A DNA stretch of 64,000 nucleotides from Prauserella flavalba. GTDB taxonomy: Bacteria > Actinomycetota > Actinomycetes > Mycobacteriales > Pseudonocardiaceae. The notes beneath the pieces are model-generated. The model did not search any database, was not told where the DNA came from, and saw only the letters and a program-made list of their open reading frames with translations. The stretch is from the NCBI RefSeq assembly GCF_003202235.1, contig NZ_MASU01000002.1, positions 434,001-498,000 on the forward strand, read 5' to 3'. The position numbers and the translations under genes are program-made. Of this stretch, positions 18,707-33,804 are shown in pieces; positions within the stretch are counted from its first letter, which is position 1; every line of letters starts with the position of its first letter.

Positions 18707-18788
18707 GGCGGGTTGCCCGAGCGGCCAAAGGGATCTGACTGTAAATCAGACGGCACTGCCTTCGGGGGTTCGAATCCCTCACCCGCCA
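18707..18788 (+). tRNA. tRNA-Tyr (anticodon GTA), integration site of the AICE
   Basis: 82 bases, type II with a long variable arm. The acceptor stem is GGCGGGT/ACCCGCC with discriminator A788. The anticodon stem TCTGA/TCAGA encloses CTGTAAA, so the anticodon is GTA. The T-arm is GGGGG TTCGAAT CCCTC. CCA is not encoded. From 18739 onward its sequence is shared with the 53-bp repeat at 33752, so the 3' half of the functional gene is now supplied by the integrated element. Confidence 0.97.
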
Positions 18789-18791
18789 CAC
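18739..18791 (+). repeat. attL: 53-bp direct repeat overlapping tRNA-Tyr
   Basis: Begins in the anticodon stem/loop (CTGTAAATCAGACGG) and ends three bases past the discriminator (CCGCCACAC). It is identical to 33752-33804. The crossover for this class of integrase usually falls in the anticodon loop region, so the strand exchange site is probably near the left end of the repeat. Confidence 0.95.
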
Positions 18792-18797
18792 TCGGCA

Positions 18798-18840
18798 AAC
18801 ACCCCCGCGACCTGCGAGAACAGGGCACGGGGGTGTTCTT
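18798..18840 (+). terminator. Element-borne terminator after tRNA-Tyr
   Basis: AACACCCCCG (18798-18807) pairs with CGGGGGTGTT (18828-18837) around a 20-base loop and is followed by CTTG. It lies inside the element, so integration brings its own terminator to the tRNA gene. It also lies just past the integrase stop on the other strand. Confidence 0.75.
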
Positions 18841-18908
18841 GTATGTCCGGCCGCGTCCGACTCGGTCCGGCACCGACCGGCATCCCGCCCCAAATACACC
18901 CCAGAGCT

Positions 18909-20288
18909 CTAATAGCCACGCATGGCGCGCTCAGCGCGGTCACGAGCGGCCTTCTCGCCGCCGTCCAGGCACTTCGCGTAGACCTTCAGCAGCACTGAGA
19001 GGCTGTGGCCTGCCCACTTCGCCACCCTGGTCGGCTCCACGCCGCCGCTCAACCAGGTTGAGACGCACGCGTGACGCAGGTCGTACGGCCGCTTGGCGAG
19101 CGGGCCAGCCTGCACCTCTTCGGTGAAGACCAGCTCGCGTGCGGCAGCCCATACGCGTCCGTAGACGCTGCTCGACACCCGGCCGCCGTCTCGGGCGCCG
19201 CGGAAGAGGCGACCGTCCGGCGCCGTGCCGAAGCGGGTCAGGTGGTTGTGCAGGATCTCCGTCAACGCGGGCGCGCAGGGAACCGTCCGGCCGGTGTTCT
19301 CCTCGCGGTGCTTCAGTGGACCCGCTTCGCTCGCCTCGCCCGAGTCGGTCCACTCCTTTGCGATCTCGGGGCGCGCGCCACTCAGGTTGAGATCGCCCCA
19401 GCCTTCCTCGGGAATCGCGAGATCGGTCTTGTTCAGGTTTGCGGCCTCCTCAGGGCGCAAACCGGCGTAGTACATCGTGGCGAAGAAGGCGACGAGTGGT
19501 GGCCCCGGTTTCCCCACGTTGCCGACTGCCTCCAACAACATCCGCGCTTGCATCGGGTTCACGACCGAAGCGGGGTCGACCTCCTTGAGCGCGTAGTTGC
19601 GCCTCTTGGTCTTCAGCTCGGCGAGTGGGTTGCCCGCGAGCAGCTTCTTCTCAATGGCGTAGTCGATGGAGTTGGTGAGCGCGGCCTTGCGGATGCGCAC
19701 GGTGTTCGTCGATCCTCGCTTGCCGTCCAGGTTGGTTTCGAGTTCGGCAAGTACCGACCGAAGAACGTCGGGCTTCTCCAGGTCGTTCACGTTGCGACTG
19801 TGCCGGGCGATCGTGCTCAGCTCGCCGGCCATCCGGCCGGACAGCGCGGCCTCGCGCGTCGTCGGATTGAACGCAGCCATCAGGGCTTGCCGCAACTCCC
19901 GTCCCTCGGGGCTGCCTGCATCGGGCAACGAACCGCGATTGTCGGTCATGGCCAGAGTGATCCGTGCGAGCGATTCCGCAGTGGACTTCCGATATCGAGG
20001 CGAGGAGTTCGGCCACTTCATGTCGATGTACTCGCACGCGAACTCGAACCACGGCATCGTCGCGAGCTTTCGCATCATCGAGACCGGTAAGCCAGTGTCG
20101 GTGTCGAATGCTTCGCCCTTACGCGACGCGGTGACGAGATCCGAGCGGAAGCTGTCGGCGAGACCGACTGTCGCAAAGGACTCGCCGAACCTCTGCTTCG
20201 CAACGAGCCAGCGCACGCGGTAGGTGGTCTTCCGCTTGCCCTTGATCTTCTCTACTGCCCAGATACGGACGTCGTGGCTGGTCTGCAT
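18909..20288 (-). CDS. int: AICE tyrosine recombinase (integrase)
   Basis: 459 residues from ATG 20288, which overlaps the excisionase stop as TGATG. The N-terminal part has an arm-binding-like region and a core-binding SAM-like domain (about 70-215). The catalytic domain shows Arg278 (AGLRPEEAANL), box II YDLRHACVST with Arg405 and the usual His replaced by Tyr402, AGHS with His428, and VYAK with nucleophile Tyr437. It performs site-specific insertion and excision at the tRNA-Tyr 3' end, 118 bases away. The length is typical for AICE integrases. The gene reads toward attL, the standard arrangement. Confidence 0.95.
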   Translation of the reverse strand: MQTSHDVRIWAVEKIKGKRKTTYRVRWLVAKQRFGESFATVGLADSFRSDLVTASRKGEAFDTDTGLPVSMMRKLATMPWFEFACEYIDMKWPNSSPRYRKSTAESLARITLAMTDNRGSLPDAGSPEGRELRQALMAAFNPTTREAALSGRMAGELSTIARHSRNVNDLEKPDVLRSVLAELETNLDGKRGSTNTVRIRKAALTNSIDYAIEKKLLAGNPLAELKTKRRNYALKEVDPASVVNPMQARMLLEAVGNVGKPGPPLVAFFATMYYAGLRPEEAANLNKTDLAIPEEGWGDLNLSGARPEIAKEWTDSGEASEAGPLKHREENTGRTVPCAPALTEILHNHLTRFGTAPDGRLFRGARDGGRVSSSVYGRVWAAARELVFTEEVQAGPLAKRPYDLRHACVSTWLSGGVEPTRVAKWAGHSLSVLLKVYAKCLDGGEKAARDRAERAMRGY

Positions 20289-20476
20289 CAGGCGGCCACC
20301 TCTCGGGATTCGAGCCACGCTTCGAGGTCCGAGCGTCGAATGCGGATTTCGCCGTTCGGCAGCTTGATATGCCGTGGTGCGCGGCCCTTTGCACACCAGT
20401 CGTAGAAGGTCGACTTGGCGACCTGGAGCTCTTCGCAGAACGCTTTCAGCGTGAGGAATCGGGACGTGGTGCCCAT
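20288..20476 (-). CDS. xis: Excisionase, MerR/AlpA-type helix-turn-helix
   Basis: 62 residues from ATG 20476, with GGAGG upstream. The helix-turn-helix is LTLKAFCEELQVAKSTFYDW, followed by KGRAPRHIKLPNGEIRIRRS and DLEAWLESREVAA, the standard layout of AlpA/Xis proteins with a winged segment. It overlaps int by one base, so the two are translationally coupled. It should bind the attachment region and bias recombination toward excision. It lies directly downstream of the GTAAC repeat cluster. Confidence 0.9.
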   Translation of the reverse strand: MGTTSRFLTLKAFCEELQVAKSTFYDWCAKGRAPRHIKLPNGEIRIRRSDLEAWLESREVAA

Positions 20477-20565
20477 GACGAGGTGTCCTCCGAGGAGTGG
20501 TGACGGTCGGCGACGGCTGGCATGAGGCATGGCGGATTCCTTCTGGTGTTGGGCGGCTATGTCGC

Positions 20566-20697
20566 GTAACTGGCGTAACCGGCGTAACCGCCCTGGTCAG
20601 CGGGTTACGGATGCTTGGGCGGTTACGGATGCATCCGTAACCGGGGCTCTTGCCGTAACCGGCTGGCCTGCGGGGTTACGTGAGTTACGTCGGTTAC
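20566..20697. repeat. Cluster of ten GTAAC/GTTAC repeats, candidate iterons or operator array
   Basis: GTAAC occurs at 20566, 20575, 20584, 20637 and 20655, and its complement GTTAC at 20604, 20622, 20675, 20684 and 20693, giving ten copies in 132 bases, five in each orientation. Most are extended to CGTAACCGG or CGGTTACGG. The first three and last three are 9 bases apart. The cluster fills the 217-base gap between the DUF3631 ATPase and xis and runs into the ATPase stop. Iterated short repeats beside a replication gene suggest the replication origin or an autoregulatory site of the element. Confidence 0.65.
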
Positions 20698-21851
20698 GCG
20701 GTAGAGCCGGGGTCGGCGGGTAGGTACCGCTTCCAGGCGTCGGCGAGGCCGGTTTCGCCGGTGGCGAGGTAGCCGCGGGTGGGCTTGCCCTCGGCCTTGT
20801 AGACGGTGGGCTTGACGCCGTAGCGGTCCAGCTCCTTCGCCAGTCGCCGGGCGTCCAGCGGCTTGCCGTAGAGGTCGCCCCACGGTGCCTCTTCGTTGGC
20901 GTAGAGGGCTTCCAGGATCGCCGCAGTGGGCAGTCGGTCGGCCTGGCGCTGGGTGAAGACCTCGCGGAGATCGGCCAGGAGCCGGATGCCGAGGCTGCCC
21001 TTGTGCGGGTCGTTGTTCGCCACGAAGTGGGCGCAGGCGGCCCGGGCGGTGTCGGGCCAGTGGCCGCCGGCGGCGTCGGCGAGGGCGATCAGCGGTTCCC
21101 AGATCTCGGCGGATCGGTCGGTGACGCCTTCGGGCATGTCGGGTTCGGCGTCGTCGAGGCTGTCGGCGACGCTGGCGACCCACGCGGCGAGCTTGTCCCG
21201 CAGCGGTTCGGCCTCGGTCTCGATGCGGCGGGTCTTGAAGGGTTCTACGTGCTCGTTCGGGGCGCGGCGGCGCATGTGGATGGTGATGGCGCGGGTGGTG
21301 ATGGTGTCGGGCATGTGCCCGGCGATCCCGGCCAGCGCGACGGGGGCGTAGACCTTGAAGCGCTGCACGTTCATGGCCTTGGCGTCGCCGACGCACCGGG
21401 CGATGGTGGCGGAGCGCTTGTAGCCGGCGTTGAGCATGGCGCGCAGGTCTTCGTAGTTGCCGCCGTTCTTTGGGTTGAAGATCGCGTCCACCTCGTCGAA
21501 CAGGATGGTGATGGGGGCGGCGTTGACCATCCGGAAGAGTGCCGCGGTGCTGGCGGAAATGGTCATCTCCGGGGCGTGCACGAGGTACTGGGCGACCTCC
21601 AGCACGCGGGTCTTACCGGACCCGGGTTCGGCGCTGGACAGGATCAGCCGTGGGGTGACGTAGAAGTGCTCGGCGGCGTGGGTGTGGGCGTACCAGAGCG
21701 CGAGGGTAGGCACGCAGTGCTCGTCGGGGAAGGCGTTGAAGCGGGACACGAAGGCTCCGATCTCATCGAGGACGGCGGCACCATCGGCGGGCGTGGGGCC
21801 AGGTGCGCGGGCGGCGGGCACGACCCGTAGTGGGCGGGCGGGATGGCTCAT
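20694..21851 (-). CDS. DUF3631-type P-loop ATPase, probable AICE replication protein
   Basis: 385 residues from ATG 21851. Walker A is SSAEPGSGKTRVLE near residue 75 and Walker B is ITILFDEVDAIF near residue 115. A sensor-like segment (TRAITIHMRRRAPNEHVEPF) and a C-terminal DUF3631 region (YANEEAPWGDLYGKPLDARR, LAKELDRYGVKP) follow. Proteins of this family occur on actinobacterial plasmids and prophages, often with primase/helicase modules, and have the look of a helicase loader or replicative ATPase. The mechanism is not established. The gene is the last of a co-oriented series and faces the GTAAC repeat cluster. Confidence 0.75.
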   Translation of the reverse strand: MSHPARPLRVVPAARAPGPTPADGAAVLDEIGAFVSRFNAFPDEHCVPTLALWYAHTHAAEHFYVTPRLILSSAEPGSGKTRVLEVAQYLVHAPEMTISASTAALFRMVNAAPITILFDEVDAIFNPKNGGNYEDLRAMLNAGYKRSATIARCVGDAKAMNVQRFKVYAPVALAGIAGHMPDTITTRAITIHMRRRAPNEHVEPFKTRRIETEAEPLRDKLAAWVASVADSLDDAEPDMPEGVTDRSAEIWEPLIALADAAGGHWPDTARAACAHFVANNDPHKGSLGIRLLADLREVFTQRQADRLPTAAILEALYANEEAPWGDLYGKPLDARRLAKELDRYGVKPTVYKAEGKPTRGYLATGETGLADAWKRYLPADPGSTA

Positions 21852-21884: not shown

Positions 21885-22352
21885 TCAGGCGGCGTCCTGG
21901 TCGGCCCGTAGACGGGCGCGGACGCGGACGACGGTGCGCGGGGTGGTGCGCAAGGTGCAGGCGATCTCGCGGGCGGTCTTGCCGGCGCGGGTCAGCCGGG
22001 CGACCTCCCGGTCGCGCGGGTTCTCCGGACGGCGGTGGCGGTGTGGGCGTTCCTGCTCGGTCTGTCCGCCCCAGATGCCGAACTCCTCGTCGTGGCTCCG
22101 AGCCCACTCCGCGCAGGCAGCGCGGACCGGGCAGACGGCACACACGCGCTTGGCCGCGGCGGTCAGCTCGGCGGCACCGGGGCCGGGTTCGGGGAAGAAC
22201 GCGTCCGGGTCGGTGCCGCGGCAGGCAGCGTGCTCGTGCCAGGCGAGCTCGGCGGCGGTCACGCCGAGGACGGCCCAGGTTGGCGGGGCGGCTGGTGCGC
22301 GGCCGGGGGTGGTTGTACCGGTGATGCGGCGTGGCTGGCGAAGTTGGGGCAT
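21885..22352 (-). CDS. WhiB-family iron-sulfur regulator with C-terminal helix-turn-helix
   Basis: 155 residues from ATG 22352 (TGATG overlap with the upstream stop). The four cluster cysteines are in HAACRGTDPDAFFPE and RVCAVCPVRAAC, followed by the WhiB turn FGIWGGQTEQER. The last 45 residues (RDREVARLTRAGKTAREIAC, then TLRTTPRTVVRVRARL) look like a region-4/LuxR-type helix-turn-helix, which compact chromosomal WhiB proteins lack. It is a redox- or NO-sensitive 4Fe-4S transcription factor and is likely to control element genes. Its place in the operon between the DnaB-N-like gene and the ATPase is typical of AICE gene content. Confidence 0.88.
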   Translation of the reverse strand: MPQLRQPRRITGTTTPGRAPAAPPTWAVLGVTAAELAWHEHAACRGTDPDAFFPEPGPGAAELTAAAKRVCAVCPVRAACAEWARSHDEEFGIWGGQTEQERPHRHRRPENPRDREVARLTRAGKTAREIACTLRTTPRTVVRVRARLRADQDAA

Positions 22353-22858
22353 CAGGCTGCCACCTCCAAATTCGGCCGGCCGGTCACGGCGGCCTGGTAG
22401 CGCGACCAGAGTTCGTCGACGGCGGCGGCGTCGTCGGCCAGCTCGCGCAGCACCTCGGTCGGTGAGCTGGCCACGGCCTGCTCGATGCGGCGGGCGTGGG
22501 CGAGCAGGGCGCGGCGCCATGCGGTCTCCAGCAGGACGGCCTTGAGGTGGTCAGCAAGCTCGGGCGGCGGGGCGTCGCGGAAGGTGTCGGCCAGCCAGCC
22601 GGACAGCCACTCGCGGCGCTTCTCACCCGGTGCCTGCCCGGTGGCGATGGCGTGGGTGTAGAGGGTGACCGGGGCCGGGGTCCGTTCGGCGGCCACGACT
22701 TCGATGGCGAGTTGGAGGCTGTGGGCGGTCATGCCGCCGGCGAAGTCGGTGGCGCGCATTCCGGCCAGCAACCGCCGCGCGATGCGGGCGGGAAGCTGCA
22801 TCAGGCAGCCGAGGAACTGGCGTTCGGGGTCGGTCAGGGCATCGGTAGCGGTGACCAT
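22352..22858 (-). CDS. DnaB N-terminal-domain-like replication protein
   Basis: 168 residues from ATG 22858, with AGGAAGG upstream. The first 90 residues (DPERQFLGCLMQLPARIARR, DFAGGMTAHSLQLAIEVVAA, PAPVTLYTHAIATGQ) follow the helical pattern of the DnaB helicase N-terminal domain, which mediates hexamer collar formation and primase contact. The RecA-like helicase domain is absent and the remainder is helical. It may act as an adaptor with the DUF3631 ATPase encoded two genes downstream. The similarity is by pattern only, so the call is moderate. Confidence 0.6.
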   Translation of the reverse strand: MVTATDALTDPERQFLGCLMQLPARIARRLLAGMRATDFAGGMTAHSLQLAIEVVAAERTPAPVTLYTHAIATGQAPGEKRREWLSGWLADTFRDAPPPELADHLKAVLLETAWRRALLAHARRIEQAVASSPTEVLRELADDAAAVDELWSRYQAAVTGRPNLEVAA

Positions 22859-22881: not shown

Positions 22882-23514
22882 TCAGGCGCAGCGGGCGAGG
22901 ACGGCGGCCAGGGAGTCGTGTTCGGCTTGGTCGATCGAGAGGCGGTAGCGGGTCTTGGTCTCGATCCAGCGGGCGGCGTAGCCGCACCGGTCCCGCTCCG
23001 GGAGCCAGTGCGCGGGGTCGGAGTCCCCTTTGGACCGGTTCGCGCGGGCGGTGGCGACGACGAGGACGTCCGGGTCGTTGGCGTAGCGTTCCCGCTCGGC
23101 GCGGGACCAGGTGCGGGGGCCGACGCGGTGGCCGTTCTCGATGCGGCCGGAGCGGGCGACCTCGGCCAGTGGCACGAGGTGGTCAATGTCCAGTTTGGAC
23201 GCGTCGGTGACGGTCACCCCGTCGTAGGCGCTGACCCAGGTCCCGGTGATCGGGCGGCACTGGTCGTCGGCGCGGACGTCCTGGCCCTGATCGAGCAGGG
23301 CTTGTTCGCGGGCGTTGCAGGTGCCGTGCACGGTCTTCCAGTGCGGCCAGTCGTCGCGGTCGTAGTGGAACCCGGTGTCTTCGGGGGCGATCGGCAGCGC
23401 GGCGAGCGTGGCGGCGACCTCAGCAGGGGCGGCGGAGGTGTCGGTGACGGGCAGGCAACCGGCGGTCAGGGCGAGGGTGGCGAGCGCGGCAACGGTGATG
23501 GCGGCGGGCTTCAT
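22882..23514 (-). CDS. Secreted HNH-type nuclease lipoprotein (DUF1524/HNH family)
   Basis: 210 residues from ATG 23514 with GAGAGGAAG upstream. A lipoprotein signal peptide ends in LTAGC (Cys20). The nuclease core has DRDDWPHWK, the metal/catalytic motif DIDHLVPLAEVARSG near residue 110, YANDPDVLVVATARANRSKG, DSDPAHWLP and YAARWIETKTRY, matching actinobacterial extracellular HNH nucleases. It should sit on the outside of the membrane and cut DNA. Inside a DNA-transfer operon it might process DNA in the cell envelope or attack competitors. A chromosomal relative lies at 42508-43107. Confidence 0.85.
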   Translation of the reverse strand: MKPAAITVAALATLALTAGCLPVTDTSAAPAEVAATLAALPIAPEDTGFHYDRDDWPHWKTVHGTCNAREQALLDQGQDVRADDQCRPITGTWVSAYDGVTVTDASKLDIDHLVPLAEVARSGRIENGHRVGPRTWSRAERERYANDPDVLVVATARANRSKGDSDPAHWLPERDRCGYAARWIETKTRYRLSIDQAEHDSLAAVLARCA

Positions 23515-23638: not shown

Positions 23639-23732
23639 CTAGGAGCTAGCTCGCAGCTCAGGAAGGGTGTGGGGCGCTAGCGGGGATGCTAGATCTAGCA
23701 TCGGGTGACGCTAGCGAGCCGGAACCCGCTAG
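23639..23732. repeat. CTAG-rich cluster with an 18-bp palindrome, candidate clt transfer locus
   Basis: CTAG, normally scarce in high-GC DNA, occurs seven times in 94 bases: 23639, 23646, 23677, 23689, 23695, 23711 and 23729. Five copies are part of GCTAGC or CGCTAG. Two form the perfect palindrome GATGCTAGATCTAGCATC at 23685-23702. The cluster begins 14 bases beyond the stop of the TraB-like translocase gene. In Streptomyces conjugative plasmids the TraB recognition repeats (clt) lie next to traB, so this is a candidate for that site. Confidence 0.6.
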
Positions 23733-23745: not shown

Positions 23746-26043
23746 TTACTCTCCGTTGTTCTTGGTGCGGTGGCGGTCGGCCGCGGCGAGCACGGCGGCG
23801 CGTTCGACACCGCGCCGGTTGGCGGTCTTGCCGTCCTCGGTGCGGCCGTAGACCTGGAGCGTGTCCACGCCGAACGGCTTGAGCGCGGAGGCGAGCTGGT
23901 TGGCCTTCGCCCGCCCGTCCAGCTCGGCCCACGACCCGTAGACCTCCGGGCGCAGCTCGGCGAGCCGGTCGACCAGGGTTTCCGACCACACCTTCTGTTC
24001 CCCGGCCCGGATCACCGACGCGGTGTCGGCGATGACCGAATAGGACGGACGCGCGGCCTCGTCGGTGACCACTTCGCCGGCGGCGTGGCCGGTGATGGTG
24101 CCGTGTCCCTCGCGCAGGGCGCGGGCGCGGTTCACGATCTTCTCGGCGGCTGGGCCGTCGATGTAGTAGCCGCGCACGATCTGCGGGTCGTCGCTGGCGC
24201 CGACCAGGTAGCCGATGCCCTTGTCCTTCGCCCCGAACGTGGTGGCCCGGATGCCGTTCTTGTACGACGAGGTGCCCAGCACCATGTCGTTCTCCAGCTG
24301 GCCCATGACCCGCAGGCAAAACCGCAGACCGGCGTTCGCCGAGACGCCCGGCGGCAGGGACTGGGCGTCGGGGCGCTGGGTGGCCAGCACGAGGATGATG
24401 CCCATCGCCGGGCCGCGCTTGATGATGCCCTCGGCTAGCTTGCGGGCCTCGTCCTTGTAGTCGTCGTGGGAGAACAGTTCCTGGCACTCGTCAATCGCGG
24501 CGAAGATCGGGTGCAGCCCGAGCTTGCGGTTGCGCGAGAGCTGCGGGGTGACCTTGTTTTCCGGGCACAGCGCCCGGTTTTCCTTGGCGATGCGGGTGAT
24601 GGTCTTCGACCGGCGCTCCAGCTCCTTATACAGCCGGCGCAGGCTGTTCATGGCGCCTTCCAGCGTCTCGTCGTCGGCGCCGGAGCCGTACTCGTGCGCG
24701 ACCTTCTCGAACATCCCCAGGTCACCGGTGCCCTTGAGCTCCCACAACACCAGCTCCACCCACGGGTCCAGCGCCGCGGCCAGCACCAGCACCCGCAGGG
24801 AGAACGTCTTGCCCATGCGGGGCATGGCGCCGATGACCATGTTCGCGAACATCAGGTCCACCCCGACCGGACGGCCGCGCTGGTCGGTGCCGAACGGGAC
24901 CGACTTGAACAGGTCCGCCTCACCCGACTTCGCCAGCGGCCAGGTCGCGGGCTTGGCCTTGGACATGTCCTGGTCCCCGACCCAGATCACCAGCCGCCCG
25001 GCGTGCTCCTCGGACACCGGCTCGGGCCACACGCAGCCCAGCGGGCGGCGCAGCCCTGACGCCAGCTTGTCGCGACGCTCCATCACATCCGTCACGGTGA
25101 CGCCGTGCGGCAGGTCGACCTCGGCGCGCCAGCCCGGCCCGTCCCGGGTGATCGGCGCCGGGAACGTGATGCCCTGCCCCTTCGCTACGGCCTGGTTGAT
25201 CCCGGAGATGCCCAGCGCGGCCAGGGCGCGGACCACAACGTCGCTGGTCAGCTTCGGCGCCTTCGACGTCACGACGGCGCGGCCGAGAACCGGCTTGTCC
25301 GCCGGGGTGCCGACCTTGCCCAGCAGCGCGACCCCGGCGGCGGCCAGCAGCCACGCCAGGCCGGTGCTGTAGCTGGCTAGCACGTACACGCCGGCCGCGG
25401 CCACGAGCAGGGTCAGGAAGGCGAGCAGGCCGCGCTTGCGGATGCGCTCGGCGCGGACCTCGGCGAGCTTGAAGTACTTGTCGTACTCGTTCGCCGTCAC
25501 CGCCGCCGCGCGCAGCGGCTTGCCCTCCGCGTCGTAGACCCACCGGTGCGTGGCCACGACCACCCGCCACAGCCCGCGGGGCGAGCGCAGCAGCAGGATT
25601 CCGGCATAGGCCGGGGTCCGCACCGCGTGGTAGGCGATCGTGTGGCCGGTGTAGAAGGCGACCCACTTCACCCGGTCCCGCAGCTCGGCCTTGGACCGCG
25701 CCCACGCGGGCAGCAACGGCCGGATCTTCGCGTCCCGGGTGGTCTCCCACCACGACGCCTTGGCCGGTGTCGGCGGGTCCACGAGCACCGCGTGCCGGAC
25801 CTGCTCGGCGTCCTCGTCGTCGACGATCTCGGCGTCGATCACGTCCGACCGGGACAGGTCGCGGCGTTCCTGAACGGGGATCTCGTCGGCGTTGTTGGCG
25901 CTGTCCGGGCGGGGCGTGAACGGCAGCACCTTGCCGTTCACGGTCTCGCGCTGGTCGGTGTTCACGGGCTCCTGTTCGGGGGTGTTCATGAGGTCCTCAC
26001 GGTTGGAGTCGTCGCCGGGGCGCGGGTTGGTGGGGATGGACAT
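23746..26043 (-). CDS. traB: TraB/TraSA-type FtsK-SpoIIIE DNA translocase
   Basis: 765 residues from ATG 26043, overlapping the upstream stop as TGATG. The first 120 residues are acidic and flexible, and membrane helices span about 206-242 (LLAFLTLLVAAAGVYVLASY). The FtsK-type motor has Walker A GAMPRMGKT (405-413) and Walker B FAAIDECQEL (acid pair 518-519), then ATQRPDAQSLPPGVSANAGL. The C-terminal 60 residues form a winged-helix-like domain, as in TraB proteins that read clt repeats. It moves double-stranded DNA between mycelia during conjugation and is the core transfer gene of the element. Confidence 0.93.
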   Translation of the reverse strand: MSIPTNPRPGDDSNREDLMNTPEQEPVNTDQRETVNGKVLPFTPRPDSANNADEIPVQERRDLSRSDVIDAEIVDDEDAEQVRHAVLVDPPTPAKASWWETTRDAKIRPLLPAWARSKAELRDRVKWVAFYTGHTIAYHAVRTPAYAGILLLRSPRGLWRVVVATHRWVYDAEGKPLRAAAVTANEYDKYFKLAEVRAERIRKRGLLAFLTLLVAAAGVYVLASYSTGLAWLLAAAGVALLGKVGTPADKPVLGRAVVTSKAPKLTSDVVVRALAALGISGINQAVAKGQGITFPAPITRDGPGWRAEVDLPHGVTVTDVMERRDKLASGLRRPLGCVWPEPVSEEHAGRLVIWVGDQDMSKAKPATWPLAKSGEADLFKSVPFGTDQRGRPVGVDLMFANMVIGAMPRMGKTFSLRVLVLAAALDPWVELVLWELKGTGDLGMFEKVAHEYGSGADDETLEGAMNSLRRLYKELERRSKTITRIAKENRALCPENKVTPQLSRNRKLGLHPIFAAIDECQELFSHDDYKDEARKLAEGIIKRGPAMGIILVLATQRPDAQSLPPGVSANAGLRFCLRVMGQLENDMVLGTSSYKNGIRATTFGAKDKGIGYLVGASDDPQIVRGYYIDGPAAEKIVNRARALREGHGTITGHAAGEVVTDEAARPSYSVIADTASVIRAGEQKVWSETLVDRLAELRPEVYGSWAELDGRAKANQLASALKPFGVDTLQVYGRTEDGKTANRRGVERAAVLAAADRHRTKNNGE

Positions 26044-26912: not shown

Positions 26913-27223
26913 CGCTGCCCCCTCGTGGTCGTGACGATCTCGGTCACCGCGAGCAGCCGCGCCACGGCCGCGCCGGCGAACAGCGACGGCACGATGAGCA
27001 CGATCAGCAGCGCGGTGGTGTTGGGCCACCAGGTGATGACGGCCCACTGGATGGCGACGATCACCGCGGCCGTGAGCAGCGTCCGCACGGCGTTGCCGGT
27101 CATCCGGGTCACCTCGCGGACGCCCTTGCGGGCCTTGAGCGCGGACTTCCGGCCGGACCGCCAGGTCGCGAACAACCCGATCAGCGCGAGTCCGCCGAGG
27201 ACGTAGAGCGCGGTGTGGTTCAT
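26909..27223 (-). CDS. Small SpdA-like membrane protein
   Basis: 104 residues from ATG 27223 (TGATG overlap). One helix lies at residues 4-20 (TALYVLGGLALIGLFATW), then a basic loop (RSGRKSALKARKGVREVTRM), and two further helices cover about 50-90 (LLTAAVIVAIQWAVITWW and LLIVLIVPSLFAGAAVA). It is coupled on both sides within the transfer operon. Small basic multi-pass proteins of this kind accompany TraB and Spd proteins in AICEs; the exact role is unknown. Confidence 0.65.
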   Translation of the reverse strand: MNHTALYVLGGLALIGLFATWRSGRKSALKARKGVREVTRMTGNAVRTLLTAAVIVAIQWAVITWWPNTTALLIVLIVPSLFAGAAVARLLAVTEIVTTTRGQR

Positions 27224-27468
27224 CAGGCCACCTCCTTCGCGGTGTCGAGCTCGGCGAACAGGTCGATCTGGTCGGCGGGCTGCCACGCCCCGTCGCGCCA
27301 AACGGCGTCGAGAGCGATGCCTTCCTCAGCACGCAGGACGGGTTCGGTCCTGGACAGCCACGCGGCGCGCTGGACGGCGGTCAGGTCGCGCCACCGGCGC
27401 CCGGTCGTGGTCTCGTAACGGCGGATGGCGAGGGTCTTGAGCTGGGCGGGTGTGGCGACGGTCCTCAT
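27223..27468 (-). CDS. Hypothetical AICE protein
   Basis: 81 residues from ATG 27468, with a four-base ATGA overlap with the SsgA-like gene and a TGATG overlap with the next gene, which supports translation. The composition is soluble and charged, with many Arg and Trp (RRYETTTGRRWRDLTAVQRA). No family is recognised. It lies between the SsgA-like and the small membrane protein genes in the transfer operon. Confidence 0.6.
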   Translation of the reverse strand: MRTVATPAQLKTLAIRRYETTTGRRWRDLTAVQRAAWLSRTEPVLRAEEGIALDAVWRDGAWQPADQIDLFAELDTAKEVA

Positions 27469-27908
27469 GCGGCCTCACCACCCAGCGCCGCGAACTCGCG
27501 GTCCCAGTCGATCCGGTCCGACTCGCTGCCGATCGGCACCAGGGCCTCGGTCTTGGCCAGCGCGTCGACCAGGCTGGCGCGCTTGAACGCGAAGTCGGCC
27601 ACCCCGGTCGGAGAGGACAGGCTGATCCACACCCGCCACGGCACGTCCAGGCACGGGGCGACCAGCACGTCCCCCATGCCCGCGTTGTCGGCGCTGCCGG
27701 GCGGGATCGCCAGGCCCTCGGCGAGCAGGTCCCGGGCGATGTGCCAGCGCGCCCACTGCTCGGCGCCGACCGCGAAGTCCAGCACCACCGCGAACGGGTC
27801 ATCCGTGCGGTAGCGGAACTTCACCTTCACCGGCACCAGCTCGATCACCTCGCCAGAGCAGTCCTCCAGCTCGGCCCACATCGGCAGGTTCAGGCTCGTG
27901 GGCAGCAT
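27465..27908 (-). CDS. SsgA-like protein (SALP family)
   Basis: 147 residues from ATG 27908 (TGATG overlap). The family pattern is clear: VPVKVKFRYRTDDPFAVVLD, WARWHIARDLLAEGLAIPPG, GDVLVAPCLDVPWRVWISLS and SPTGVADFAFKRASLVDALA, which match the beta-sheet core of SsgA/SsgB. Chromosomal SALPs control septum placement and peptidoglycan remodelling during sporulation in actinomycetes. One encoded among transfer genes may steer transfer or spread to particular septa or cell poles, which is an inference. It is also longer than a minimal SALP core by about ten residues at the start. Confidence 0.8.
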   Translation of the reverse strand: MLPTSLNLPMWAELEDCSGEVIELVPVKVKFRYRTDDPFAVVLDFAVGAEQWARWHIARDLLAEGLAIPPGSADNAGMGDVLVAPCLDVPWRVWISLSSPTGVADFAFKRASLVDALAKTEALVPIGSESDRIDWDREFAALGGEAA

Positions 27909-28279
27909 CAGCGCTCACCCCGCTCGATCTCCGGGGCGAGGGCGGCGAAGCGGCACACCGCTTCACACACGTCGCCGTAGAGGTCCAGGGCCGCCGCGTA
28001 GCTGGCGTCCTGCACCACGTCCTCGGCCTCCATGCTGCCCACGCGCTGCTCGGCGCCCTGCCGGATCAGATCGGCCCAGGTCTCCAGGTGCTCGCGGCCG
28101 GCTCGCAGCTTGGCCAACACGCGCTCGCGCTCCTGCACAGCCTGGTCGCGCTCGTTGGTGCCTACCATTGGGTTCCTTCCCGAGTGGTCTTGCGACTGGT
28201 TGGGGAGTCCCGGCACGGCGTGCTTGTTCTTGGCGGAGTGGGCCGCCGTGCCGGGGTCCGTGATCACAAAGCGAGTCAT
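27908..28279 (-). CDS. Hypothetical AICE protein with helical C-terminus
   Basis: 123 residues from ATG 28279, preceded by GGGGGC. An in-frame ATG at 28168 with GGAAGGAACCC upstream would give 86 residues and has the better ribosome binding site; the longer form is kept because its codons are strongly G/C at the third position. The N-terminal 37 residues look disordered. The rest is helical and acidic (RERVLAKLRAGREHLETWAD, YGDVCEAVCRFAALAPEIE). No family is recognised. Confidence 0.55.
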   Translation of the reverse strand: MTRFVITDPGTAAHSAKNKHAVPGLPNQSQDHSGRNPMVGTNERDQAVQERERVLAKLRAGREHLETWADLIRQGAEQRVGSMEAEDVVQDASYAAALDLYGDVCEAVCRFAALAPEIERGER

Positions 28280-28296: not shown

Positions 28297-28749
28297 TCAG
28301 GCGAGGACGGACAGGACCAGCGCGACGGCGAGCGCGCCGGCGCCGAGGATGAGCAGGTTCACCGCGTGCTTGACGCGGGTGTGCTTGTCCACCGCGAGCT
28401 GACCCAGCAGGCACACGTCCTGCGCGGCAGCCTCGGCGGCGTAGCTACCGGCCTCCAGCAGCACACTCGGCCCGTGCAACGTGGCGTCCAGCCACGATCC
28501 CGGCGCCGGGAACTGCGAAAGCTTCGGCCGGATCGTGGCCAGCAGCACCAGCACCGCACCGAAGATCGGCAGAGCCGACAGCCACAGCGCGGCCAGCGCC
28601 GGAACCGGCATCCCGGCCTTGGCCAGCGCCACCACCCCGGCCAGCGCCACCCCGACCACCGACAACAACGTCGTGGCCTTGGTGTCCGCCCGGCGCAACT
28701 CGTCCCGAACCTGCTCGTGCGCCCGCAGCACCACCGGCGGCGCGTCCAT
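28297..28749 (-). CDS. PycTM-like two-helix membrane protein
   Basis: 150 residues from ATG 28749. The sequence HEQVRDELRRADTKATTLLS, then VVGVALAGVVALAKAG and a second helix LAALWLSALPIFGAVLVLLA, follows the pattern of the Pycsar effector membrane family (PycTM). A helical cytosolic segment and a third C-terminal hydrophobic helix follow. In Pycsar defence such proteins open in response to cyclic pyrimidine nucleotides, but no cyclase gene is nearby. Relatives on actinobacterial plasmids are usually treated as transfer-associated membrane proteins. Function here is open. Confidence 0.6.
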   Translation of the reverse strand: MDAPPVVLRAHEQVRDELRRADTKATTLLSVVGVALAGVVALAKAGMPVPALAALWLSALPIFGAVLVLLATIRPKLSQFPAPGSWLDATLHGPSVLLEAGSYAAEAAAQDVCLLGQLAVDKHTRVKHAVNLLILGAGALAVALVLSVLA

Positions 28750-28762: not shown

Positions 28763-29080
28763 TCAGGCGGCCTCCCCCTCGATCAGGTCGGCCACGTCCA
28801 GCCGGGCCGGCAGCGACCGCAGCACGGTCGCCTCCGCCCGGCGCAACTCCCGCCCCGCCCGGCGCGGATCGGTGAACCGCGGCACCCGAACCAGCGCCGC
28901 GAGCGCGGCGGCCTCCAACTCGGCGTCGATCTCGTCGAGCAGGTCCAACGCGCCGGCCAACTCGTCGGCATCCGCCGCGCAGGCAGCCTGCGCCTGCACC
29001 GCGAACACCTCGTCGTAGTCGATGTCCAGACCGTCGAACCGGGCCTCGGCCTGCCGACGGCTGATGTGTGCGGACCTCAT
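28763..29080 (-). CDS. Hypothetical acidic AICE protein
   Basis: 105 residues from ATG 29080. It is strongly acidic and alanine-rich (FAVQAQAACAADADELAGAL, DLLDEIDAELEAAALAALVR), probably all-helical. It is the first gene of the long minus-strand transfer operon and faces the divergent GntR repressor gene across 121 bases. No family is recognised. First genes of such operons are often small regulators or mating-pair proteins, but nothing in the sequence decides this. Confidence 0.6.
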   Translation of the reverse strand: MRSAHISRRQAEARFDGLDIDYDEVFAVQAQAACAADADELAGALDLLDEIDAELEAAALAALVRVPRFTDPRRAGRELRRAEATVLRSLPARLDVADLIEGEAA

Positions 29081-29201
29081 CGGGTCTCCCTTCCGGGTTC
29101 AATGCCTTAACGTGCCTTAGTGCACTACATGGTGCTCGGGCCCGTCAAGGTCGCACATGTGGTGCTTTAGGGTGATGTTGGTTCCGAGGTACCCTCGGTC
29201 A
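29081..29201. promoter_or_regulatory. Divergent promoter/operator region of the AICE transfer operon
   Basis: 121 bases between the minus-strand transfer operon and the plus-strand GntR gene. It contains direct repeats TGCCTTA at 29103-29109 and 29113-29119, and GGTGCT at 29131-29136 and 29161-29166, exactly 30 bases apart. Repeats at about ten- and thirty-base spacing lie on the same helix face, as expected for a KorSA/TraR-type operator. Confidence 0.5.
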
Positions 29202-29540
29202 GTGCCTATCGATCAGCACGGCGCTCAGCCGCTAAGCACTCAGATCAGGGACGACCTCGCCCGACGCATCCGCGCGGGGGAGTTCAACGTGGGGGAGAAG
29301 ATTCCGTCGCTTCGGGCGCTCGCCGCGGACTACGGCGTCGCCGAGCTGACGGTGCACGGCGCGATCCGGGAGCTTCAGCACGCGGGCGTTCTGGAGTCCT
29401 CCACGGGCCGCGGCACCTTCGTCCGTGCTCTGCCGGACGAGGTTGCCTCTAACGCCGACGCCCTGGAAGCCCTCCGAGCCGAGGTCGCGGACCTCCGGGA
29501 GCGAGTCGAGGCCTTGGAGAAGGAGCGCCAGTCGCGCTGA
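29202..29540 (+). CDS. GntR-family repressor of the AICE (KorSA/TraR-like)
   Basis: 112 residues from GTG 29202; an upstream in-frame ATG at 29175 is less likely because the family begins with the PIDxxxxxPLxxQIxxDL pattern seen directly after the GTG. The winged helix is VGEKIPSLRALAADYGVAEL and TVHGAIRELQHAGVLE, ending TGRGTFVRALP. The last 30 residues are a coiled coil (ALRAEVADLRERVEALEKER) for dimerisation instead of a large ligand domain. Compact GntR proteins of this kind repress tra genes in AICEs and plasmids. Its divergent position fits that role. Confidence 0.85.
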   Translation: MPIDQHGAQPLSTQIRDDLARRIRAGEFNVGEKIPSLRALAADYGVAELTVHGAIRELQHAGVLESSTGRGTFVRALPDEVASNADALEALRAEVADLRERVEALEKERQSR

Positions 29541-29637: not shown

Positions 29638-30576
29638 CTATTCCGGGGCGGCATACGCGCTGGTCAGAGACTTCCAGCCGTCCGAAAGAATCTGCGACAA
29701 ATCCGAGTTCGGGGCTTGCCAGCCCAGCTCCTCACGGATGCGCCGGCTGTCCGCGAGCAGCACGCGCGGCTCGTTCGCGGGCGGGTTCCGCTTGATCCGG
29801 ACCGGACGGCCGGTGATCTGCTCGGCGGCCGCGAGAACGTCGTTGATGGACGTCTCGCGGCCGCTGCCGACGTTGTAGGCGCGCCACTCGCCAGGGGTGC
29901 ACGCCTCGATGGCGAGGACGAAGGCGTGTGCCATGTCGGCGACGTGCACGAAGTCGCGGACGGCTGATCCGTCGCCGTTGACGCCCAGCTCCTCGGCGAG
30001 TCCGGCCTGGACGGCGAGCACCTTGGGGATCAGGCGGGTGAAGTCGCGGTCCGGGTGGCCGTCGACGGCACCGGCGATGTTGAACGCGCGCAGGCTGATC
30101 GCCCCGAGCCGGCCGGTTGCCGCGACGTTCGCGGCCGCGAGGTCAGCCGCGGCTTTGGTCGCTCCGTACGGGTTCGTCGGCGCGATCGGCGCGTCTTCGC
30201 TGATGGGCTGGACGGTCGGGGTGCCGTAGACGGCCGCCGTCGACGCGAGCACGAGGCTGGCCGGCGCGTCCCGGTCCGTGAGGGCTCCGAGCAGGTTGAG
30301 CGTGCCGTTGACGTTGGTACGCCAGTAGGGCAGGGGATCGGCCAGGGACTCGCGGACCCGAGCGCGGGCCGCGAGGTGGCACACGCCTTCGACGTCGCGG
30401 ACCGCTTCGCGGAGGCTGGCCGGGTCTTCGACGTCCCCGACTGCCGTTGCCGCTGCTTGACGTGGGGCCTTGGCGGCGTCGCGCACGAACGCCACCGGGT
30501 CGTGCCCCCGCTCGGCGAGGGCAGCGACGACGGCGTGTCCGAGGTACCCGGCAGCGCCGGTGACGAGAACGCGCAC
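29638..30576 (-). CDS. NAD-dependent epimerase/dehydratase (GalE-like), AICE cargo
   Basis: 312 residues from GTG 30576. It has an N-terminal NAD-binding GAAGYLGHAVV, catalytic Ser/Thr in LASTAAVYGTP and the NPYGATKAAADLAA dyad (Tyr and Lys). SLRAFNIAGA and RDFVHVADMAHAFVLAIEAC follow, as in UDP-glucose 4-epimerases of the extended SDR family. It would interconvert or dehydrate a nucleotide sugar. The gene follows the XRE-NUDIX-like regulator by four bases, so they form a two-gene unit. A sugar-nucleotide enzyme is unusual cargo for an AICE and might modify the host surface. Confidence 0.85.
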   Translation of the reverse strand: MRVLVTGAAGYLGHAVVAALAERGHDPVAFVRDAAKAPRQAAATAVGDVEDPASLREAVRDVEGVCHLAARARVRESLADPLPYWRTNVNGTLNLLGALTDRDAPASLVLASTAAVYGTPTVQPISEDAPIAPTNPYGATKAAADLAAANVAATGRLGAISLRAFNIAGAVDGHPDRDFTRLIPKVLAVQAGLAEELGVNGDGSAVRDFVHVADMAHAFVLAIEACTPGEWRAYNVGSGRETSINDVLAAAEQITGRPVRIKRNPPANEPRVLLADSRRIREELGWQAPNSDLSQILSDGWKSLTSAYAAPE

Positions 30577-30580
30577 GTGC

Positions 30581-32047
30581 TCAGCTTGCCAGGAGGGTGT
30601 TCCGGTGCTGCCAGGCCAGCTCGATGCAGGCGCGCGAGATCGGTGAGAGCGGTTCGGACTTCAGCCGCTCGCGAGACTCCGAGTTGAAGGGGATGCCCAC
30701 AGTCGGCCGGCCCGCCTCGGTGCTGACGGCGGCGCCCTCCTCGTTAACCTCGACCATGCCGGCGAAGAGCTGATCGAACACCGGCGCCTCAATCACGGCG
30801 ACAGTCAGCAGCTCCACCCACAGCGTCAGCGGTTCGAGCACCACGGCGCAGGTGAAGACACGGAAGTCACCGGCCGCTCGAGCAGCGGCGAACGAGCGGA
30901 ACGGCTCGTCGTGCTCGTAGTCGATGGGGTCAAGGGCGTTGCCGTCGTGCTCGGGGTTGCCGAGGAACTCTTCGGAGTACTCGCGCTGGATGTTGCGCCA
31001 CAGGGAGAAGTCGTTGGCCTGGTGCGCGGGCGCGAGCGCGGCGGGCTGGAACACCCCGGCGGGGATGACGTGGAACATGCCGCCGGCGACCGCGGTGGCC
31101 TTGGCGTCGCGGCGGTGCAGGAACATCCGGTGCCCGTCGATCGGGTCCCGCCGGATGGTCAGGGTGTTGATACTGGGCAGCATCGGCCGGGCGAGCAGGT
31201 CGAACGGGTCGACGATGTGGCGGCGCAGCGGCAGGTGAGCGAGGCTGGGCCGCTTCCGGCCGGCGCGGAGCCAGGCGTCGGCGAACTCGTGCGCCGCGGC
31301 CTCGCAGACGTCCAGGACGTCGAAGTAGGTGGTGTAGCTGAACCCGAGGCGGCCCTTGTCGCCGGTCCAGTCGACCTCGGCGAGGCGGTAGCTGACGCGG
31401 TTGTCCAGCAGCTTCGGCCGGGCGAGGTCGCGCAGGGCGCGCGAGTAGAGCCGGAAGCGGTCGCCGTCCGCGGCCAGCGGCCGGACGCTCTCGGTCTGCT
31501 CGATGCCCCGGGTGATGGCGGGCTTGGGCAGGGCCTCGGCGAGCCAGTACAGCTCGATATCGGACAGCTCGACTGGCTCGGAGGGCAGCCAGTTCGGCTG
31601 GGTCAGGACGGTGGTGCCGGGGATGCAGTGGGCCTGCGGGTACAGCTCGGACGCGAGGTCGCCGAGCCGGGCGCGGTTGGCGTTCAGCTCACGCCGCACG
31701 AGCTTCCAGTGCTCCTGGCTCTCGTGCGGCGCGCCGGCGTCGCTGACCTGCCCCGGCTTGGGGATGGCGTCCGCGGAGTGGTCGGGCAGGATGCCGAGGC
31801 GTTCCGGCGGGATGTGCAGCTTGGCCGCGATCGACCGCAGCTCGGCGAGGCCAGGCACGAGCTTGCCTTTCTCGACCTTCGACACCCAGGACTGCGTGGT
31901 GTTGAGCAGGTCAGCGGCTTCCTGCTGAGTGAGGTTGTGGTGCTGCCGGTACCAGCGGATGACCTCTCCAGCGTCGGAGCCATCTGGGGGAGCGGCAACA
32001 GCCTGCGCCACGTGTAGCCACCTTCCGGTGTCGGCGGTGTCGGTCAA
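30581..32047 (-). CDS. XRE-family regulator with NUDIX-like C-terminal region
   Basis: 488 residues from TTG 32047, chosen because GAAAGGAAG precedes it; a GTG at 32074 is the alternative. The helix-turn-helix is IRWYRQHHNLTQQEAADLLN and TTQSWVSKVEKGKLVPGLA, residues about 30-70. The long middle region is not recognised. Near residue 360 a NUDIX-like stretch appears (GGMFHVIPAGVFQP and later QREYSEEFLGNPE, resembling the REUxEExG box), so the protein may sense or hydrolyse a nucleotide derivative. AICEs such as pSAM2 encode NUDIX and activator proteins, and here both seem fused. It probably regulates the epimerase or element activation. Confidence 0.65.
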   Translation of the reverse strand: MTDTADTGRWLHVAQAVAAPPDGSDAGEVIRWYRQHHNLTQQEAADLLNTTQSWVSKVEKGKLVPGLAELRSIAAKLHIPPERLGILPDHSADAIPKPGQVSDAGAPHESQEHWKLVRRELNANRARLGDLASELYPQAHCIPGTTVLTQPNWLPSEPVELSDIELYWLAEALPKPAITRGIEQTESVRPLAADGDRFRLYSRALRDLARPKLLDNRVSYRLAEVDWTGDKGRLGFSYTTYFDVLDVCEAAAHEFADAWLRAGRKRPSLAHLPLRRHIVDPFDLLARPMLPSINTLTIRRDPIDGHRMFLHRRDAKATAVAGGMFHVIPAGVFQPAALAPAHQANDFSLWRNIQREYSEEFLGNPEHDGNALDPIDYEHDEPFRSFAAARAAGDFRVFTCAVVLEPLTLWVELLTVAVIEAPVFDQLFAGMVEVNEEGAAVSTEAGRPTVGIPFNSESRERLKSEPLSPISRACIELAWQHRNTLLAS

Positions 32048-32158
32048 GGCGCGCTTCCTTTCGCGGCTCGTCACACATTCCCGGCTCAATTGTCGCAGCT
32101 TCGAGCACTGTTTGGGCAGGAAGGGCGTGAAGTGCCGAGAAGCTCCGGTTGCTGCTTC

Positions 32159-33463
32159 CTAGACCTTCAGTGCATCGCCCCAGCGAAGGTAGAACGCCAG
32201 GAACGGATCCAGCACATAAAACCGATCATCTTTGTATGCCACGGCTGGGTCACCTGCGCCTCTTTCTGCCTCGGCGATCGTAGACATGTGGCGGAGAGTG
32301 TTGGACACCTGTTGTGCGCTAGGAACATCTTCCTTCAGTTCCGCATCCAACCGCCTGGTGATCTCTTGATATGTCAAGATCGTCTTAGGTCCGGTCATCG
32401 CGATAGCCCGCAAGACGGCGCCGTAAATGTCGGTTGTGAATCCATCTTTGAACGGACGATCTATGCGTTCCTGTCCGCGACTCTTCGGTCCCGCAAGTAG
32501 ACGATCGAAAACGGGGGGCGTTATCCTGTTTGCGATACGCCGAAAGAATGCTTCCCAGCCACCAATTGGTCCAGATATCGATTGCGGGTCGTTCTTGGTT
32601 TCAAGGATTCCGCTTGCCGTGCAAACGTCGTGGCACAGTTGCTGCATGAGGAAGGGGGCGCCATAGGAGTGCTCGGCAAGTTTTGTCGCAACCACGTCCT
32701 CAGGGTCTGCAACGTTGAGGGCCTCGAAGCCCTTTTTTGCGATGAAGATCAACTCGTCTTTAGTCCACGGTTCGATTCTGAGATTCCAGACGCGGCCGCT
32801 CATGTCTGGTTCCCGTCGGACCACTTCAAAGGCTTCGTGCGGAACTGCGACGAGGACCACATGCGTGATGGTGATGATGCTCTTGACGGCTCGTGCAACC
32901 TCAAGTTGAGCTGCTCGGTCGATGTAGTGGAAGTCATCCAGAACTATAGGAACCGGTAGGGTTTCGAGACCTTGCCGCGCGACTGCGGCGTATGCGCGCT
33001 TTCTTGCAAGTTTGACCGTTGAGGTTGCCGTGCTGCTGTCGCCGACGTTTGCCGTAACTGACGCGACTTTCGGGACGCCGATAGACCCAGAGACGCCAGT
33101 GCTGGTTTGGTCAGCGTTCTGGGTGCTGACCTCAACTTGATCATACAGGCCATACCAGTCGACGATTCTCTCCCAGAATTCGTCAACACTCTTGATGTCA
33201 GAACCCTGTAACCAAATCGCGTCGTGTGTCGGAAGCTGCTTCTCGATAAGGACAGTCTTACCCGATTTCGTTGGGCCGGATACAGAGAGGGCCTTTCCGC
33301 CTTGGGAGAGGTAGCTTCCAACCTCGGATTCCTGTTGGCGTTCGTCTCTCGGATTATACGTGACGAGCGGTGTTCGTCCGGCGACGAACACGTTTTTTGT
33401 CAGGTAGACAATCCTCTGATCAACGGTCTTATCAGCCAAGTGTGGCTCCCATCCCTGCGTCAT
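32159..33463 (-). CDS. AAA/ORC-type ATPase, low-GC cargo gene
   Basis: 434 residues from ATG 33463; a TTG at 33487 is also possible. Walker A is SVSGPTKSGKTVLIEKQL near residue 75 and Walker B is VPIVLDDFHYIDRA near residue 190, followed by a sensor-like HVVLVAVPHEAFEVVRR. The C-terminal 150 residues look like a helical lid and a winged helix. The segment between the motifs has a Thr/Ser-rich stretch. GC content is close to one half by inspection, far below the flanking 70 percent, so this gene was recently acquired. NTPases of this shape occur in defence and regulatory systems, but no partner gene is present and the function is unknown. Confidence 0.6.
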   Translation of the reverse strand: MTQGWEPHLADKTVDQRIVYLTKNVFVAGRTPLVTYNPRDERQQESEVGSYLSQGGKALSVSGPTKSGKTVLIEKQLPTHDAIWLQGSDIKSVDEFWERIVDWYGLYDQVEVSTQNADQTSTGVSGSIGVPKVASVTANVGDSSTATSTVKLARKRAYAAVARQGLETLPVPIVLDDFHYIDRAAQLEVARAVKSIITITHVVLVAVPHEAFEVVRREPDMSGRVWNLRIEPWTKDELIFIAKKGFEALNVADPEDVVATKLAEHSYGAPFLMQQLCHDVCTASGILETKNDPQSISGPIGGWEAFFRRIANRITPPVFDRLLAGPKSRGQERIDRPFKDGFTTDIYGAVLRAIAMTGPKTILTYQEITRRLDAELKEDVPSAQQVSNTLRHMSTIAEAERGAGDPAVAYKDDRFYVLDPFLAFYLRWGDALKV

Positions 33464-33751
33464 CGCCCCTCGGTAGATGAGTGGCAACAGCTTCCCAGTG
33501 TCTGGCGCTTCGAGCGCCGCCGTTCTCCCCTCTCTTGCGTCCCCGTGGGTCCGATGCGTCCCTGCGCTAGCCGTAATGTCTGCGGACGATGACCCAGTGT
33601 TACGGCGGGCTGCTCAACTTCTGCTGGGAGGTACTGGTGCGCTGACGGAGCGCTTCCATGCGTTCCGGCTCGGTGCGCACGCCCCAAATGCTCCCCTAGT
33701 GGTGCCGCTCAGAAGGTAAAGGTCCAGGTCAGACCCGGTTTGCTCGCCGCT
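33464..33751. other. Non-coding right end of the AICE
   Basis: About 290 bases between the low-GC ATPase and the right attachment repeat. One short frame (33576-33719, 47 codons, including a TTA codon) has no ribosome binding site and is not called as a gene. GC content rises again toward the repeat. Nothing else is recognisable; arm-type integrase binding sites may lie here. Confidence 0.4.
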
Positions 33752-33804
33752 CTGTAAATCAGACGGCACTGCCTTCGGGGGTTCGAATCCCTCACCCGCC
33801 ACAC
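33752..33804 (+). repeat. attR: second copy of the 53-bp tRNA-Tyr repeat
   Basis: Perfect copy of 18739-18791. It contains the tRNA 3' half (anticodon stem onward, including TTCGAATCCCTCACCCGCC) without a 5' half, so it is a remnant and not a gene. It marks the right boundary between element and chromosome. Confidence 0.95.

Follow-up and report, generated by a model that had tools for sequence, protein, structure and literature searches.

SLP1 is an actinomycete integrative and conjugative element (AICE) that resides in tRNA-Tyr of Streptomyces. Here we describe an element with the same tRNA-Tyr target in Prauserella flavalba (contig NZ_MASU01000002.1), within a stretch of 64,000 nucleotides that we call the window and whose numbering we use throughout. 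According to a passage of PMC3218068, SLP1 has a Prim-Pol replication operon, whereas the window has a RepAM-type protein, RepAM being equated there with DUF3631 (Ghinet et al.). With the RepAM-type AICEs (pMEA300; the pSE211/pMEA100 Tra clades of Ghinet et al. 2011), the element shares a tyrosine integrase, Xis, a DUF3631 Rep, an FtsK-type Tra, a GntR regulator and a tRNA site. At the level of published descriptions, the window adds to these the tRNA-Tyr site and, within the transfer operon or next to it, genes for SsgA-like, PycTM and WhiB proteins.

In Streptomyces plasmids, repeats serve as the Tra recognition or transfer site, the cis-acting locus of transfer (clt), with 8-bp repeats in pSVH1, 9-bp repeats in pJV1 and TGACACC in pWTY27. 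Excerpts of PMC3583192 describe TraB as binding repeated 8-bp motifs via its C-terminal winged helix, and place the pWTY27 clt in the last 16 bp of traA plus the next 159 bp, next to an FtsK-type tra gene. We find a repeat array at the corresponding place in the window, of a different type: its units are CTAG-centred and palindromic, and its layout is common to many genera. The string CTAG is absent from the available text portions of PMC3583192, PMC3218068, PMC4170104 and PMC6722414. We found no CTAG-type clt in the open-licence literature, covered mostly by title and abstract and exclusive of subscription journals. The element by itself is ordinary. The unexpected part is the array behind tra, which is conserved and covaries with the wing of Tra. 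Comparing sequences, we consider it very probable that the element is an integrated AICE whose array 3′ of tra is a clt bound by the Tra winged helix, with the wing setting specificity.

A CTAG array lies directly behind tra in many genera

The array of the window holds seven CTAG in palindromic settings (seven in 146 bp), while the entire 64 kb contains 16. We compared 80 tra loci. One is that of the window, and 79 are from a set of 80 named loci that represent, among others, Streptomyces, Kitasatospora, Micromonospora, Actinomadura, Nonomuraea, Pseudonocardia and Amycolatopsis; L146 of this set was dropped because its contig ends. At least five CTAG occur within 300 bp after the tra stop in 67 of the 80 loci. 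The mean number of CTAG per 300 bp is 6.26 behind tra versus 0.20 elsewhere, and the densest stretch of the locus sits right behind tra in 69/80. The commonest gaps between successive CTAG are 6, 12, 16, 31 and 7 bases, a single layout across loci. Thirteen loci have fewer than five CTAG, and in 11 of them a variant array with this layout is seen by eye, for example CTATCGATAG (L143), CTACCGGTAG (L174), CTAACGTTAG (L177, L181, L206, L210), CTACATGTAG (L189) and CTACACGTAG (L213). Tra genes of other clades apparently have other repeats at the corresponding position (GAGGGAG in L069 and L066, GGGGA in L076, by eye).

The array is thus, as expected of a clt, a repeated motif beside tra. A generic 6-mer repeat test against shuffles was weak (35/80 loci at p <= 0.01; p 0.22 for the window); the CTAG count, the layout and the covariation bear the argument. 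The paired motif CTAGNNCTAG occurs at just two places in the window's own 8.09-Mb genome, one of them the array behind tra, which would make it a very selective address for the Tra of the window if the array is a clt.

The array covaries with the C-terminus of Tra

The last ~100 residues of Tra form a predicted winged helix (AlphaFold2 mean predicted local distance difference test score, pLDDT, 82.6), and both positions that covary with the array fall in its two wing strands. The first is a single wing residue, which goes with the central dinucleotide of the paired CTAG units: W with GT, AC or GC (47 loci), Y or H with AT (6 loci), and a wing deletion with CG (17 loci). This rule fits 70/70 scorable loci, the same 70 from which it was drawn; 10 of the 80 are not scorable. 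The second position (N-R-x-G; NRRG loci) goes with the base flanking CTAG, which is G/C in 41/41 NRRG loci. The 26 other loci comprise 10 with T/A flanks, 2 ties and 14 with G/C (Fisher 1.1e-5, ties removed and relatedness of loci uncorrected). The flank count leaves out the 13 loci with fewer than five CTAG.

The C-terminus outpredicts both the Tra core and GntR for the array class. Taking the nearest neighbour by Tra C-terminus, we obtained the correct centre in 69/70 loci, and by Tra core in 62/70. In the 59 loci with a GntR match (the best per locus), the C-terminus gave the centre in 58, the core in 53 and GntR in 43; for the flank in 52 loci the figures were 49, 43 and 44. With the C-terminus excluded, parsimony on a Tra-core tree required 7 changes for the wing and 5 for the centre, compared with ~24 and ~22 for shuffled labels.

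Judged from their sequences, two tra genes appear to be domain swaps in which the C-terminus and the array class changed together. L206 has a W-type core (76/75% to L209/L191) and a deletion-type C-terminus (74/73% to L210/L177), and its array is of the L210/L177 type, matching its C-terminus. The core of L139 is nearest to L137 and the window (68%) and its C-terminus to L202/L203 (68%); its array is of the T/A class, as in L202/L203.

We also scored 15 held-out loci, including L068, which had been inspected beforehand. Twelve fit the centre rule, one does not, and two are not scorable. For the flank, 7/7 NRRG loci are G/C and 5/8 of the others T/A, some with few CTAG. The Streptomyces plasmid L249 and the Nonomuraea locus L251 fit the rule by eye. 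By covariation, then, the motif appears specific to the winged helix of its cognate Tra, as in a clt.

Arrays also occur without a recognised tra

Scanning 100 relatives with a pattern of two paired units, we found 26 places in 12 genomes. Eleven are no more than about 55 bp away from where a tra match ends. Seven of the other 15 are in five integrase-bearing loci (L252, L253, L255, L256, L257), none of which yielded a Tra-profile match; Pfam named no FtsK among ten proteins of four of these tra-less loci (none from L257). Two of these loci, L252 and L253, lie between tRNA repeats (56 bp and 46 bp, respectively), and each has two arrays, one of the G/C and one of the T/A class. They are integrated elements of ~11-12 kb at tRNA-Ser and tRNA-Thr of one genome (L252:5574-17240, L253:6392-17249), with Int and GntR and no recognised FtsK gene; L252 also encodes a DUF3987 protein. 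L258 has two places, ~9 kb away from a remote homologue of Tra (G027:C8, 32%), and L259 and L262 have one each. The remaining four belong to G032 (L254, L260, L261), a genome with period-10 CTAG repeats at several chromosomal places, unlike tra arrays. These period-10 repeats match the reverse pattern and look like a different repeat, and we rejected them as tra-type arrays.

In G064 the tra-less array and that of the resident Tra are both of the T/A class, and the first arrays of G015 share the G/C class with its resident array; the tra-less array of G061 is of mixed class. These small numbers fit mobilization of tra-less arrays in trans by resident AICEs, a reading drawn from sequence classes.

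The element is a complete-looking AICE in tRNA-Tyr

The preliminary description of this DNA had proposed an apparently complete AICE bounded by a 53-bp perfect repeat in tRNA-Tyr, and both points are borne out. We found a single tRNA-Tyr (GTA) gene, which is intact. A 53-nt direct repeat, overlapping the 3′ part of this gene, is 100% identical on re-alignment and recurs at a spacing of 15,013, which confirms the proposed coordinates to the base. The remaining long direct repeats (39-51 nt) of the 16.5-kb stretch reach just 61-73% identity. A 101-base query of tRNA-Tyr with short flanks matches solely the two repeat sites in the whole genome (8,093,541 bases, 39 contigs). Gene calls and profile matches place the integrase and Xis genes beside the intact tRNA-Tyr, as had been noted.

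With its integration at a tRNA 3′ end between direct repeats, tyrosine integrase, Rep of the RepAM type (PF12307), FtsK/SpoIIIE-type Tra (PF01580) and GntR regulator, the element is a complete-looking AICE and an ordinary member of a known family. No relaxase or type IV secretion family was found among the 20 profile-scanned open reading frames (ORFs), a subset of those in the element. The integrase has the catalytic-type residues (AGLR, YDLRH, GH, Y); its PF00589 match (E 1.6e-4, 21.9 bits) is below the curated cut-off of 27.1, and it matches phrog_1 at E 2.9e-25. The proposed order int-xis-rep-tra-spd-repressor fits, except that no named Spd family was found; the Spd position holds only small genes, orf8 and orf9, for whose products membrane segments are predicted. 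Likewise, the module order agrees with the suggested likeness to pSAM2/pSE211-type AICEs, but Rep is of the RepAM (DUF3631, pMEA300) type rather than pSAM2 RepSA.

We compared the site in three congeners. G002 is 98% identical over tRNA-Tyr and the left flank. Next comes a different element, 16.3 kb long and bounded on both sides by the 53-bp sequence of the window, and after it the right flank of the window at 92% identity. The two elements are 68% identical in Int, 69% in RepAM, just 33% in Tra, 57% in GalE and 74% in XRE. G001 has one tRNA-Tyr, behind which we found no integrase of the element, and its synteny with the window returns from 42517. Its first ~5 kb past the tRNA are not homologous to the right flank of the window, so G001 provides the uninterrupted tRNA-Tyr sought in close relatives, and not a perfect junction of left and right flanks. 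G003 has a related element of ~12.7 kb. A single site therefore hosts different related elements in different species, as a section of PMC9513070 likewise reports for other AICE sites. About 9 kb beyond attR, the window also has a chromosomal relative of the element's HNH nuclease gene (42517-43159); this segment and 22922-23388 match one G001 gene at 85% and 67% DNA identity.

All core genes are open, as had been proposed, and the element may be able to excise and transfer. It is unlikely that it is instead a decaying relic that no longer moves. Some cargo (the AAA gene) does differ in base composition, and related elements have decayed: the tra gene of G003 has an internal TAG, and A. deserti (L135) has truncated XRE and SsgA genes that adjoin each other, with the genes between them gone. 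In the window, however, the catalytic-type residues are present, the 53-bp repeat is perfect and the array is intact. Moreover, identity to A. deserti is 92-97% for tra, HNH, WhiB and rep and 85% for orf5, whereas each of the two integrase genes there is only 47-48% identical to that of the window, which suggests that modules moved or recombined recently.

Regulatory and replicative readings of the array

Improbable, in our judgement, is an operator or promoter array through which one of the element's own regulators (GntR, WhiB or XRE) would control the operon that follows tra. The array does stand ahead of the next operon gene. In iterated profile searches over 137 loci, GntR matches are frequent (89/137), and they persist in L252, L253 and L256, where no FtsK gene is recognised. 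However, GntR, the one regulator compared, predicts both the centre and the flank worse than the Tra C-terminus, and the array class shifts with that C-terminus, including in the two apparent domain swaps. Where no FtsK gene is recognised, the array sits by the integrase or near the far end, and not ahead of the same gene. Least probable is a replication origin (iterons or a nick region): the array lies between tra and rep, and all 21 loci with a RepAM match have at least five CTAG, but it is also found in 46/59 loci without such a match, as a variant on plasmid L249 with its annotated primase/polymerase gene, and in DUF3987-bearing elements where no tra is recognised, going with tra and not with the type of rep.

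A transfer-site reading of the array

Several observations weigh against the array as a clt read by the Tra wing. L167 and L207 have no recognisable array behind tra, and neither has the P. alni plasmid L250, whose Tra is 52.6% identical with a divergent C-terminus. Foldseek gave no match for the Tra C-terminus at E <= 0.001, its weak matches often being winged-helix proteins. The covarying residues lie in the wing, versus the helix alpha-3 specificity of the TraB precedent. The flank rule is one-sided, with G/C in more than half of the non-NRRG loci, and the Tra core alone already gives most centres. The counts are not independent events because the loci are related, and the changes on the Tra-core tree are few. 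Among the held-out loci, L099 has the centre CT, and L092 and L095 are without a paired unit. In the genome scan, more than half of the places are not directly behind a tra match, and the pattern misses the array of the window itself because fewer paired units are present there.

Favouring the clt all the same, we propose the following course. The integrase and Xis would recombine the two 53-bp sites, and RepAM, as its family implies, would replicate the excised circle. The FtsK-like Tra, again going by its family, would pump double-stranded DNA into the mating partner. Its C-terminal winged helix would bind the CTAG repeats, where the hexamer would be loaded. The wing would set the repeat specificity, and the array and the end of Tra would therefore evolve and swap together. 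We are evenly divided on a broader proposal. In it, the array would be the transfer-address code of a Tra family across many actinomycete genera, with wing residues reading the centre dinucleotide and the flank. Small integrated elements without tra would carry one or two arrays for movement in trans by resident AICEs, and a Pseudonocardiaceae branch would add an SsgA-like septation factor, perhaps for building cross-walls that serve spread.

SsgA-like and PycTM proteins in the transfer operon

The genes from orf12 through tra overlap by 1 or 4 bases with the chosen starts and thus would form one translationally coupled operon (Table 1).

SsgA reportedly stimulates septum formation in Streptomyces, and on this ground we propose a role in cross-walls for spread; that the SsgA-like protein (SALP) makes such cross-walls is a guess by analogy. 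In the iterated profile searches over 137 loci, tra has an SsgA-like gene within 7 kb in A. deserti, A. bartoniae, A. pithecellobii, A. suaedae, A. sacchari, Tamaricihabitans, an Actinophytocola metagenome-assembled genome (MAG), G075 and G079, as well as in the window. They are present in 7/80 named tra loci, confined to Amycolatopsis, Tamaricihabitans and Actinophytocola. Two genomes, G022 and G003, encode a TraG/TrwB-type coupling protein whose gene abuts or overlaps an SsgA-like ORF; a TrwC relaxase gene lies farther along. SsgA-like septation genes are seen both in FtsK-type AICE operons and in TraG/TrwB/TrwC contexts (27465-27908 in the window; L216:9912-10355; L227:9440-9994). In a FastTree of 21 short sequences, the mobile-element SALPs and those of two relaxase-type elements stand apart from chromosomal SALPs (support 0.957). 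The sequences have untrimmed ORF starts and the tree is not decisive, and we did not adopt a single clade of mobile-element SALPs. In the open-licence literature, covered mostly by title and abstract, no description of SsgA in an AICE or integrative-conjugative context was found.

The PycTM protein was considered as a Pycsar defence effector and set aside, as no pyrimidine cyclase was found, adjacent or elsewhere, among the scanned ORFs of the element. 'Pycsar effector' proteins (PF18967) are found repeatedly in AICE-like transfer regions where no cyclase is recognised (28297-28749; L087, L068, L070, L219-L226). Scanning 87 of 120 neighbours of PycTM genes in related loci, we found no Pycsar-kind cyclase among the 25/60 Pfam and 25/89 PADLOC families inspected; GGDEF occurs in two members. 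A Tra-profile match is present in 18/19 loci with a PycTM match, a set in which two locus pairs are the same element twice and part of the loci were chosen for tra; several of the Tra matches are weak, and three of those proteins have no Pfam match. The Pycsar label of PF18967 may be misleading for these transfer-region proteins.

Other features and cargo

Dense GTAACC/GGTTAC repeats lie between rep and xis and are possible Xis/Int or replication sites. On the right side, the GalE-like epimerase and the 502-aa XRE protein (29638-32089) are also paired in the elements of G002, Tamaricihabitans and the Pseudonocardia MAG L149. A conserved REx2EE stretch suggested a Pif-like Nudix domain, of the conjugal-immunity type, in the C-terminal part of the XRE protein. 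We did not adopt this reading, which stays a bare possibility: this part has no Pfam match at E up to 10, PDB matches are confined to the helix-turn-helix (HTH) part, the structure model is unusable (pLDDT 34.6), and REx2EE is the sole Nudix-like conservation. The AAA ATPase is probably recent cargo, judged by its 55% G+C against about 69% for the element. One second copy was seen among the 137 loci, in the Micromonospora locus L186.

Table 1. Features of the element, in window coordinates
Feature	Position	Strand	Basis or remark
tRNA-Tyr (GTA), left attachment gene	18707..18789	+	intact
attL-side direct repeat, 53 bp	18739..18791	+	repeat search
Tyrosine integrase, 459 aa from ATG 20288	18909..20288	-	start chosen among candidates
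Xis (HTH_17/excisionase family)	20288..20530	-	profile match
GTAACC/GGTTAC repeats upstream of xis	20562..20699		motif reading
RepAM-type replication protein (DUF3631, PF12307)	20694..21851	-	E 1.4e-65
WhiB-like regulator	21885..22352	-	E 1.1e-22; cysteines checked in sequence
orf5	22352..22858	-	no function assigned; homologues in 10/137 loci, window included
Secreted/lipoprotein-like HNH nuclease (GmrSD_C)	22882..23514	-	E 2.5e-06 and sequence
CTAG repeat array, candidate clt (putative Tra binding site)	23639..23732		directly 3′ of tra
tra, FtsK/SpoIIIE translocase, 765 aa	23746..26043	-	PF01580, E 3.8e-8
orf8, predicted membrane protein, coupled to tra, Spd position	26043..26912	-	phrog_25954
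orf9, small, predicted membrane segments	26909..27223	-	ORF call
orf10	27223..27468	-	ORF call
SsgA-like protein (SALP)	27465..27908	-	E 1.2e-23; PDB SsgA 1.5e-15
orf12	27908..28279	-	ORF call, profiles
PycTM-domain membrane protein (PF18967)	28297..28749	-	profile match; no cyclase found beside the gene
orf14, first gene of transfer operon	28763..29080	-	profiles
GntR regulator, divergent from transfer operon, KorSA/TraR position	29157..29540	+	E 1.3e-16
GalE-like sugar epimerase, cargo	29638..30576	-	profile match; paired with XRE gene
XRE-HTH protein, 502 aa, C-terminal part without recognised fold	30581..32089	-	profile match
AAA ATPase, candidate defence model PDC-S59, 55% G+C	32159..33487	-	profile match
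attR-side direct repeat, 53 bp	33752..33804	+	repeat search; right flank beyond also present in G002

Significance

If the array is the clt, sequence alone would tell which Tra moves which element. Cross-mobilization of elements that lack tra would then be predictable, and the recognition code would be testable with short DNA duplexes.

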